A stretch of DNA of 64,000 nucleotides from Streptococcus devriesei DSM 19639 (GTDB lineage Bacteria; Bacillota; Bacilli; Lactobacillales; Streptococcaceae). Position 1 is the first letter of the stretch; each line of letters starts with the position of its first letter. Below are positions 51,646-54,059 of the stretch, piece after piece. The notes below the pieces were generated by a model. That model was not told the DNA's origin, did no database searches, and saw only the letters and a program-made list of their open reading frames with translations. The stretch lies in assembly GCF_000423725.1 (NCBI RefSeq), contig NZ_AUIN01000020.1, positions 1 through 64,000 on the forward strand, read 5' to 3'. The position numbers and the translations under genes are program-made.

Positions 51646-51927
51646 ATGAAAATCATCAATGCTGTATTTTTTATCAAAGCTGACAAAAGAGAAGACTTTT
51701 TAGCAGACATCGCTCCTTTGATCGAATCGTCGCGTGCAGAAGCCGGAAACCACGGCTACCAGCTTTATGAGGCTGTGGACCTGCCCAACCAATTTGTCAT
51801 GGTTGAAGAATGGGAAGACCAAGCTGCCATTGACCAGCACAATACCAATCCGCACTTTCTTCATTTAATGGATCATTTAAAAGATTACAGTACAGCCGAC
51901 CCTATTATTAAGGTGGCAGACCAGTAA
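51646..51927 (+). CDS. Antibiotic biosynthesis monooxygenase-domain protein (YgiN-like)
   Basis: 93 residues of the dimeric ferredoxin-like ABM fold: FIKADKREDFLADIAPLIESSRAEAGNHGYQLYEA, FVMVEEWEDQAAIDQHNTNPHFL. Members act as cofactor-free quinol monooxygenases or heme-degrading proteins. This one lacks features that would choose between them; no antibiotic cluster is nearby. AAGGAG precedes the ATG. Confidence 0.85.
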   Translation: MKIINAVFFIKADKREDFLADIAPLIESSRAEAGNHGYQLYEAVDLPNQFVMVEEWEDQAAIDQHNTNPHFLHLMDHLKDYSTADPIIKVADQ

Positions 51928-51934
51928 GAATATC

Positions 51935-51992
51935 AAAAAAGAGAAGATCTCAATCGTCAGTTTAGAAAAACGATTTTGTCCTTCTCTTTTTT
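51935..51992. terminator. Shared terminator of the monooxygenase and dehydrogenase genes
   Basis: aaaaaagagaag pairs with cttctctttttt, with an inner aatcg/cgatt pair. It lies between convergent genes. Confidence 0.82.
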
Positions 51993-52002
51993 AAATGAAT
52001 CT

Positions 52003-53043
52003 TTACGATTGATCTTCCACATAAGTGTGAAGCGGATAAGTCGGATATGCAAGTAAACGCGCTTTTTCCGATGTGACATAGCCGGCAGGAGCATCAAGGA
52101 CGCTTGGGATACGGTTGACGATGGTTGCGCAGGTTAAAACAACAGTGTCAGGCTTAGCAACTGAAAACGTAAGATTAGGGTCTCCGCTTATTTCCCAGTC
52201 ACACATATCGCCATCATCTGGACCATAGACCTTGCCAATGCATTCGACTTCCAATTCAATGCCTTGGTGGGTCCTTATTTTAGTTACAGCTGACATGCCT
52301 GTCACCTGTCCAGCCGGAATGGTGCGCCCCAAGGTTTCAGAATAAACGTCTTCCTTCAAAACATAAGGAACACTCTTTTGCCCAATAGACTGAATGGTCC
52401 AATTCATCTTAGAACAGATAGCTTCTGCAGCATTCCACATATAAGAAGGTAAACTTTCTGCGGAAGCAATTTCTCGCTCAAAACGCTCTACATCATAACC
52501 GGCACCATGAGCTTCAGCAAGAGCTAGACCATAATCTTCGACATTATAGCTGACAGCTCCTTTTACCTTTTTAATTTGGTTCATTCCCGCCATGGCTAAA
52601 CAAGGCATATTAATCCAATAAATATCCTGCATGCCTGATCCCATAATGGTCACACCGTATTCTTTGGCTAGCTTATCCAAACGGTTGGTTTCAGACGGAG
52701 AAGTCGTCCAGGGATAGATGGCTTCTTCACAGGTAGAGATGACATTGACGCCATTTTTAATAGCTTTTTCATAAAATGCGTACATTTCCGGCATGTAAGA
52801 AAAGATGGTGACAATGGCAATATCAGCATCACAATCTTGGAAAACCTGATTGGCATTATCAGAAATAACGACACCTGTCTTGCAACCCAAATTAGCAAAA
52901 TCACCAATGTCCTGTCCTACTGCTGCCGGATTTGTGTCAATGGCTCCAACAATTTCAACACCGTGATCCAAGAGATTTTTGAGAATAACCTTGGACATCT
53001 TACCACAGCCGTATTGGATTGCCCGAATTTTTGTATTTCGCAT
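52003..53043 (-). CDS. NAD(P)-dependent amine/amino-acid dehydrogenase-like protein (diaminopentanoate dehydrogenase type)
   Basis: 346 residues. The N-terminal dinucleotide fold has [20 protein letters not shown] and [15 protein letters not shown] (DapB-like). [10 protein letters not shown] and [14 protein letters not shown] are shared with 2,4-diaminopentanoate dehydrogenases and relatives of ornithine fermentation. No other gene of that pathway is in the window, so the substrate is open. It is divergent from a merR gene whose operator sits in its promoter. Confidence 0.7.
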
Positions 53044-53083
53044 GTGTCCGTCCTCCTTTTATTGTTATTTTTTTCACAACTAT

Positions 53084-53114
53084 ATTATAATATCTATAGT
53101 AACTATAGAGTCAA
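53084..53114. promoter_or_regulatory. MerR-type divergent promoter and operator
   Basis: On the minus strand TTGACT (53109-53114) and TATAAT (53084-53089) are 19 nt apart, the over-long spacing typical of MerR-activated promoters. The 15-nt palindrome ctatagt-a-actatag (53094-53108) fills the spacer. On the plus strand a tataat at 53086-53091 can serve merR itself. Confidence 0.8.
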
Positions 53115-53125
53115 GGAGAAAAGTC

Positions 53126-53980
53126 ATGAATCTCATTTTAAAAATTGGAGATTTCTCCCGTATCAATAATATCTCAATTCAGACCCTGCGCTATTACGAT
53201 AAAATCGGACTTCTAAGCCCTTATTATACTGACAGCGAGACCGGCTACCGCTACTATCACATCAATCAGTCACAGATGGTAGATGAGATTCAGTATCTGC
53301 GCCAGCTTGATTTTTCCTTAGAAGAAATAAGAGCTATCCTGTCCACTCAGGAAAATCTGACGGAAATCAATCATTTTATTGATGAGCACCGGCAGCATCT
53401 TCTCTCCGAAAAGCACCGCTTGGAAGAACGTCTAAAAGAGATGGATACCTACCAAACCGGTGCACAGATTTACGATTATAAACGGCATTGCCACGATCTA
53501 GAAATTCTCACCCTGCCGGCCAGACGAATGATTGTCTACCAAACACAGCAGAATATTTATCAGATGACTGATGAAGATTATGAATTTCATCTGCGGGAAT
53601 TTAAATTAGCTTTGAAAAAAAGTAAACTGTCCTATTCAATCTTTTCCCGTGTTGGCTCAATCATCACTCAGGAAAACTTCAAACACAGAAACTGGCTTTC
53701 CCATCAAATGTTCATGTTCTCAAATGATGAAGCCGCTAACTTTTCAGTAAAGACCTATCCTTCTAGTCTTTATGCCTTGACCTACTGTACTTCTTTTCAA
53801 GAAGAAATTGAAAAACTGGATCTCTTTTACCAAATGATTAGCAACAGAGGATATGATATTACAGGCGATTATATCTGCGAGGTTATCCACGAACATCCAC
53901 GTCTCAATCAAAATAAGAGAGACATGTTTATCAGAATGCAAGTCGCCATCAGGCGGGCAGAAAGGACAAGCAGCCTCTGA
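53126..53980 (+). CDS. MerR family transcriptional regulator with effector-binding domain
   Basis: 284 residues. The N-terminal winged helix (LKIGDFSRINNISIQTLRYYDKIGLLSPYYTDSETGYRYY, about 4-45) is followed by the dimerisation coiled coil (about 75-115) and a C-terminal domain of about 150 residues that resembles GyrI/BmrR-type ligand-binding domains. No metal-binding cysteine pattern is present, so a small organic ligand is more likely. AAGGAG precedes the ATG at 53126. It is divergent from the dehydrogenase-like gene. Confidence 0.88.
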   Translation: MNLILKIGDFSRINNISIQTLRYYDKIGLLSPYYTDSETGYRYYHINQSQMVDEIQYLRQLDFSLEEIRAILSTQENLTEINHFIDEHRQHLLSEKHRLEERLKEMDTYQTGAQIYDYKRHCHDLEILTLPARRMIVYQTQQNIYQMTDEDYEFHLREFKLALKKSKLSYSIFSRVGSIITQENFKHRNWLSHQMFMFSNDEAANFSVKTYPSSLYALTYCTSFQEEIEKLDLFYQMISNRGYDITGDYICEVIHEHPRLNQNKRDMFIRMQVAIRRAERTSSL

Positions 53981-54010: not shown

Positions 54011-54059
54011 AAAAAAGCGCACGGAGACCGCAATAATATTACTTCCGTACGCTTTTTTT
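54011..54059. terminator. Terminator between merR and the ABC exporter genes
   Basis: aaaaaagcg-c-acgga pairs with tccgt-a-cgctttttt, a long stem with one mismatch, between convergent genes. Confidence 0.82.

Follow-up and report, generated by a model that had tools for sequence, protein, structure and literature searches.

When an enzyme gene and a gene for a MerR-family regulator lie back to back across one short intergenic region, which of the two genes does the regulator govern, and in answer to what signal? This question is raised by a stretch of 64,000 nt from Streptococcus devriesei DSM 19639 (hereafter the window; G+C content 43%), in which a dehydrogenase-like gene and merR diverge from a promoter whose spacer holds a palindrome. 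The reading favored here, with a probability of roughly 0.86 and with comparative sequence analysis as its basis, is that the pair forms a dedicated ligand-responsive switch, in which MerR would untwist a 19-bp promoter, turning the enzyme gene on, and would repress its own gene.

Anatomy of the locus

The enzyme gene (52003..53043, minus strand), assigned from its open reading frame and from Pfam and structure-chain matches, encodes a native amine dehydrogenase homologue of 346 aa. The regulator gene merR (53126..53980, plus strand) encodes a predicted BmrR-type protein of 284 aa with a winged helix-turn-helix (wHTH), a 42-residue helix and a GyrI-like C-terminal domain carrying E252. The two reading frames bear out the divergent arrangement reported in a preliminary description of this locus, which had also given the distance from TTGACT to TATAAT as 19 nt and described a perfect 7-1-7 palindrome between them. 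The coordinates of both hexamers proved exact, on the minus strand: as read from the sequence and from alignment of related loci, the enzyme promoter consists of a -35 element TTGACT (53109..53114), the 19-nt spacer CTATAGTTACTATAGATAT (53090..53108) and a -10 element TATAAT (53084..53089). The spacer core CTATAGT-T-ACTATAG (53094-53108) is indeed a perfect 7-1-7 dyad, and one extra pair makes it 8-1-8 (53093..53109, strandless); this dyad, also seen at related loci, is the predicted MerR operator.

A promoter scan of the window predicted a merR promoter on the plus strand, scoring 10/12 with a 16-nt spacer, of which the -35 element TTCACA (53073..53078) is conserved only in divergent loci and the -10 element TATAGT (53095..53100) falls within the operator. 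A competing reading of the enzyme promoter, TTGACT/TATTAT with a 16-nt spacer, also scores 10/12 in the window. Ribosome-binding sites were read from the sequence as AAGGAGG (53052..53058, minus strand) for the enzyme gene and AAGGAG (53113..53118, plus strand) for merR. A terminator-like hairpin stands 3' of the enzyme gene (51933..51994, minus strand, z -4.82) and another 3' of merR (54011..54058, plus strand, z -4.87), so that both genes look monocistronic. Convergent with the enzyme gene lies an open reading frame for a 93-aa protein with an ABM (antibiotic-biosynthesis-monooxygenase) domain (51646-51927, plus strand), which is absent from the recurring neighbor families of the 80 neighborhoods described below.

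The enzyme as a native amine dehydrogenase homologue

By homology, the enzyme belongs with the native amine dehydrogenases (nat-AmDHs) and is CfusAmDH/G4-like. Its closest solved chain is 6iau (CfusAmDH; whole-length match, E 1.6e-85), 6iaq (MsmeAmDH) also matches over the whole length (E 1.6e-75), and Pfam models PF01113 (40.0 bits, cut-off 25.6) and PF19328 (40.6 bits, cut-off 23.3) are both exceeded, giving a Rossmann N-terminal domain followed by a DAP_DH_C-type C-terminal domain. E106, the predicted catalytic Glu (position P3), aligns with the first Glu of GEEAFYPW in 6iau, and both E106 and E107 are invariant in 13/13 aligned enzymes. We take E106 to be Glu108 of CfusAmDH, which agrees with the offset in numbering seen for the W145A entry; Trp143 corresponds to W145 of CfusAmDH. 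Position P5 is M138 (F140 in CfusAmDH), group G4 being expected to have Met or Tyr there, and Y166 is probably P10, for which Tyr is expected in G4; P5, P8 and P9 were assigned by the residue numbers given in the relevant passages of PMC11164908. Identity as 2,4-diaminopentanoate dehydrogenase was rejected, the score to NCBIfam NF040740 being 155.3 bits against a cut-off of 400. The enzyme probably interconverts amines with ketones or aldehydes, and nat-AmDHs of groups G3 and G4 take several small carbonyls in vitro, according to the same passages of PMC11164908.

The regulator as a BmrR-type protein

The N-terminal MerR winged helix-turn-helix was recognized by PF13411 (53.8 versus 21.6 bits) and is matched by all 42 aligned relatives; the 42 rows of this alignment are 41 of the 61 adjacent MerRs found among the loci described below plus the window's own, the other 20 having been left out as near-copies, as having non-ATG starts, or as cut or frameshifted. 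An AlphaFold model of the regulator (pLDDT 90.9) contains a long helix at residues 78-119, the predicted dimerization helix, and has BmrR as its best fold match (Z 18.9, rmsd 4.8, 266 aligned), while for residues 121-276 the match is to the isolated ligand domain of BmrR (1bow; Z 14.8, rmsd 2.4, 135 aligned). A profile built from the 42-row alignment aligns with BmrR from end to end (E 3.6e-24), and the Pfam search returned no family for the C-terminal ligand domain. As modeled, the fold is BmrR-like.

E252 aligns with BmrR E253 and is invariant in 42/42 rows, and G247, Y249, C251 and R133 are likewise invariant within the subfamily. In BmrR, E253 makes polar contacts with drugs (as set out in a part of PMC9909328), and the E253Q substitution lowers affinity for rhodamine 6G nearly 100-fold and leaves that for another drug unchanged (from an excerpt of PMC3022030); since that substitution affects only some BmrR ligands, E252 does not prove a cationic ligand. 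C251, invariant in all 42 MerRs, directly precedes this pocket Glu; a role for its thiol as a sensor, for instance as an aldehyde-reactive Cys, was considered and is possible. Identity as NmlR was rejected (NF041849, 34.1 bits against a cut-off of 175). The window's genome holds eight MerR-family matches, so another MerR might bind the dyad.

Conservation of the promoter in Streptococcus

The palindrome does not attain significance by itself, since perfect 7-1-7 dyads number 7 in the window versus a mean of 5.85 in shuffles. For the motif CTATAGTNACTATAG with at most 2 mismatches, the window has a single occurrence versus 0.04 expected. The promoter is above chance because it is conserved across genomes that carry the pair.

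MerR was found in 21 of 197 Streptococcus genomes (E <= 1e-20), and the enzyme in the same 21. The pair is divergent in 21/21 and the 19-nt promoter is kept in 21/21 (19 recovered by alignment and 2, with long inserts, read by eye), counts in which several genomes are near relatives (S. sanguinis-like) and which do not represent 21 independent cases. Relative to the window's proteins, the enzyme in these genomes is 78-95% identical and the regulator only 45-92%; the promoter is nonetheless kept. The ratti-like and the sanguinis-like group differ by a symmetric change at the third base of both dyad arms (CTATAG/CTATAG to CTCTAG/CTAGAG), and five streptococcal loci (L015, L022, L025, L026 and L029) have imperfect dyads with one or two broken pairs. 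At L012 and L029 (genomes G127 and G130) the genes lie 297 and 783 nt apart versus the usual 82-90, and with the promoter staying nearer merR a long leader is expected on the enzyme transcript.

Thirteen of these 21 genomes were searched for the 29-nt promoter motif (24 fixed bases) with up to 3 mismatches allowed; each holds exactly one copy, and on this ground a wider MerR regulon acting through the same promoter was rejected. In the window's genome the 15-nt dyad has 10 places at 2 or fewer mismatches and is exact only at the promoter under study; the nine inexact places may include weaker MerR sites.

Pairing of regulator, enzyme and 19-nt promoter in related loci

A scan of contigs returned 330 relatives of the enzyme, of which the best 80 were kept as named loci; these are best hits and not a random sample. 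The closest named relatives are those of Streptococcus ratti (95% identity) and S. 'caviae' (94%). MerR adjoins the enzyme in 61 of these best 80 loci, a share that applies among the closest relatives and not across the whole enzyme family. The arrangement is divergent in 25 loci (Streptococcus, Enterococcus, Vagococcus, Globicatella and Erysipelothrix) and co-directional, with merR upstream, in 36 (Clostridia, Erysipelotrichia, Spirochaetota, one Chloroflexota and others); many of the co-directional loci are metagenome-assembled, those of Treponema sp. Marseille-Q4130 and two Hungatella strains being exceptions.

When the spacer was left free from 14 to 22 nt, 19 nt was the sole best in 25/25 divergent loci and among the best in 35/36 co-directional loci. 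In the 19 loci without MerR, a spacer of 19 was among the best in 10, mostly as low-score ties, and 11/12 was reached at any spacer in 4/19; 72 of 1220 dinucleotide shuffles reached 11/12, 9 of them at 19 nt. A score of at least 11/12 at 19 nt was found in 53/61 loci with MerR versus 2/19 without (Fisher 1.4e-9, uncorrected for kinship), which leaves 8/61 MerR loci below that score, and at least 10/12 in 61/61 versus 5/19. Two loci without MerR score at least 11/12 at 19 nt: L134, counted among the 19 with only 407 nt of contig upstream of the enzyme, and L152 (Treponema parvum), where MerR is matched only in part.

Kinship was taken into account on an enzyme tree of 77 of the 80 loci plus the window (L102, L105 and L114, whose tblastn alignments crossed a stop, were dropped), with L134 set aside as well. 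Ten independent pairs of loci differing in MerR were obtained; on average the promoter went with MerR in 8.2 of them, against it in 0, and did not differ in 1.8 (median p 0.008). With a spacer of 17 nt, a score of 11/12 was not reached in this test by any of the named loci, whether they have MerR or not. Across the enzyme tree, the 19-bp promoter tracks the regulator.

Besides the enzyme and MerR, no family of open reading frames was present in more than 25 of the 80 neighborhoods. A larger conserved operon was rejected accordingly: the next family occurs in 25/80 loci, scattered and on both strands. The preliminary description had taken the two genes for a self-contained unit, and this view has held up, as only enzyme and MerR recur consistently. 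L115 (Wohlfahrtiimonas populi, Pseudomonadota) carries an enzyme 67% identical to the window's that clusters with Erysipelothrix in the tree (98/91), a placement suggestive of horizontal transfer of the enzyme gene; the L115 and Erysipelothrix rows are long-branched and their exact placement is unsure.

Two gene orders and covariation of the dyad

Divergent and co-directional loci fall on the two sides of a 100/100 branch of the enzyme tree, and loci without MerR occur on both sides of it. In both orders the 19-nt promoter directly precedes the enzyme gene, which in co-directional loci places it between merR and that gene. The reading advanced in the preliminary description, that MerR would activate the dehydrogenase-like gene in answer to a ligand, agrees with these comparisons: the pairing of regulator with dehydrogenase is specific, and the promoter follows the regulator and stands before the enzyme gene whichever way merR points. 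Directly behind the -10, the hexamer TTGTGA (which reads TTCACA from the merR side) was found in 23/25 divergent versus 0/36 co-directional loci, and in 25/25 divergent loci when one base was relaxed. Because TTGTGA occurs only with divergent merR, that element would serve merR, and the shared 19-nt promoter would serve the enzyme.

The dyad arms covary. Among 44 distinct sites, the observed complementarity of four of the seven pairs was never reached in 2000 column shuffles, figures that are inflated by related sequences; the two innermost pairs were unremarkable, and one pair has an invariant column and is uninformative. Several operators, some of them streptococcal, are imperfect dyads.

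Distribution in Lactobacillales and across the phylum

Of 395 Lactobacillales genomes, 17 have a match to the MerR profile (E <= 1e-40) and 26 have one to the enzyme (E <= 1e-20), with 16 of the 17 MerR-bearing genomes among those 26. The exception is G262, in which the enzyme was not found and whose MerR (locus L196) matches only profile positions 86-277, leaving out the DNA-binding part; it is probably a decaying remnant. Ten of the 26 enzyme-bearing genomes have no MerR of the subfamily beside the enzyme. Besides the window's own, 26 Lactobacillales loci were read (one genome contributing two), and MerR is adjacent in 15 of them, always on the opposite strand; the 19-nt promoter is the best in 14 of these 15 and tied in 1, and none of the other 11 loci has its best promoter at 19 nt with a score of at least 11/12. 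At one of the loci without MerR, L051 (genome G245), the enzyme is 80% identical to the window's and is preceded by a 12/12 promoter with a 17-nt spacer, overlapped by TGTAAGCGCTATA. The latter resembles a catabolite-control (cre) site, and control at this locus may have been swapped upon loss of the regulator.

In a phylum sample of 398 genomes the enzyme (E <= 1e-60) was found in 11, with MerR adjacent in 7/11; five of these seven adjacent MerRs are co-directional, and four of those five loci have a 19-nt promoter of at least 11/12. At L199, one of the four loci of this sample without MerR, a dyad follows TTGACC and no MerR lies within the 1.5 kb examined. The share of enzymes with MerR is accordingly 61/80 among the closest loci, 7/11 in the phylum sample and 16/26 among Lactobacillales genomes, and the enzyme can, on the evidence of these sequences, exist without a MerR of the subfamily beside it.

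Proposed mechanism and alternative explanations

The dyad was found inside a promoter spacer within the 19-20 bp range given for MerR-type promoters in a section of PMC9909328, where shortening of such spacers is reported to abolish the response and BmrR to kink DNA, realigning -35 and -10. By analogy with the MerR family we infer an off and an on state, and with them DNA binding at the dyad and the direction of control. A BmrR-type MerR dimer would occupy the spacer dyad upstream of the amine dehydrogenase gene. The promoter itself would be off, because its 19-nt spacer separates -35 and -10 too widely and leaves them out of register. A small organic ligand would enter the GyrI-like pocket with its invariant Glu252, and the ligand-bound dimer would kink and untwist the spacer, whereupon RNA polymerase could start the enzyme gene; with the predicted merR -10 lying within the operator, bound MerR would also hold down its own gene. 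The ligand is probably an amine or a carbonyl handled by the enzyme, and the acidic pocket residue together with an amine-converting enzyme makes an amine the first candidate and a carbonyl the second. More tentatively, and at distinctly less than even odds, MerR may be dedicated to sensing the very amine that the enzyme handles, Glu252 pairing with the protonated amine, and the G4-like enzymes may serve as amine-inducible deaminases (or aldehyde- or ketone-inducible aminases) in fermenting bacteria. If so, a sense-and-convert module common to Lactobacillales, Clostridia and spirochaetes would so far have gone unnoticed.

Several observations weigh against the switch: the 19/80 loci without MerR, the weaker promoters at 8/61 MerR loci, the imperfect dyads, L199 and the 16-nt alternative promoter. 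The last of these, with its score of 10/12 in the window, would suit an arrangement of autoregulation only, in which the dyad represses merR, whose predicted -10 is within the operator, and the enzyme is expressed constitutively, for example from the 16-nt-spaced -10 TATTAT. We consider this very improbable, because the co-directional loci, which have no TTGTGA (0/36), still have the 19-nt promoter before the enzyme, and because 19 wins in 25/25 divergent loci when the spacer is free. These spacer counts bear equally on the idea that MerR is a plain repressor of the enzyme and not a ligand-dependent activator. The operator position is compatible with both modes, and MerR proteins repress when ligand-free (as covered in part of PMC9909328), yet a plain repressor needs no fixed spacer, whereas 19 is best in 25/25 divergent and among the best in 35/36 co-directional loci; moreover, the same part of that source places activation by distortion at near-consensus promoters whose spacers measure 19-20 bp. 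Plain repression seems to us very improbable.

A different kind of alternative concerns the signal. The regulator could be a BmrR-like multidrug sensor within a drug or toxic-amine response, the enzyme detoxifying reactive amines or aldehydes with no single native substrate, a proposal that is compatible with the switch mechanism. BmrR is the nearest solved relative by both profile and fold, and the several small carbonyls accepted in vitro by nat-AmDHs of G3 and G4 (PMC11164908, passages cited above) fit such a role; against it, the regulator goes with one enzyme and has about 20% identity to BmrR, and no neighbor besides MerR is consistently conserved. We regard a drug or toxic-amine response as rather unlikely. 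The dedicated ligand-responsive switch remains the preferred reading of the locus.

Meaning of the pair and relation to known systems

Native amine dehydrogenases are sought-after biocatalysts. In the largest study of the family (17,959 sequences; PMC11164908), the passages at hand assign a native pathway only to group G2, and the passage on the gene context of group G1 reports no clear pointer to a metabolic function; the main text of the study does not contain the words Streptococcus, Firmicutes or regulator. No report of an amine dehydrogenase-MerR pairing or regulon was found in the literature searched (open-licence PMC papers). Many relatives, mainly in Bacillota, have a dedicated predicted ligand sensor adjoining the enzyme and a readable promoter. 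As nothing but the pair is consistently conserved in the 80 neighborhoods, what these enzymes do in nature becomes testable via the inducer. Knowing what induces one such sensor would indicate the substrate that the enzyme uses physiologically, and the sensor itself could become a biosensor for engineering native amine dehydrogenases.

The proposed mechanism has precedents, and the regulator adds a member to the BmrR type. It resembles BmrR of Bacillus subtilis in domain order (wHTH, long helix, GyrI-like domain), in the pocket Glu and in an operator within a long spacer, but differs in its identity of about 20% in structure alignments and in its predicted target, which is the amine dehydrogenase gene and not an efflux pump; no multidrug efflux gene is adjacent as for BmrR, the conserved promoter preceding the amine dehydrogenase gene instead. 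It shares with NmlR, the MerR regulator of the formaldehyde-detoxifying adhC (from a section of PMC9909328), its association with a dehydrogenase gene, whereas HiNmlR lacks a sensor domain (title of entry 5d8c) and the window's regulator has one. On the enzyme side, the likeness to 2,4-diaminopentanoate dehydrogenase (Ord, AmDH4, G2) lies in a Pfam DAP_DH_C domain above cut-off. CfusAmDH (6IAU, G4) and MsmeAmDH (6IAQ, G3) are matched over the whole length, and CfusAmDH also in the catalytic Glu of EEAxYPW and in the Trp; unlike these two, the window's enzyme, known from sequence, represents a Lactobacillales clade with a dedicated regulator.
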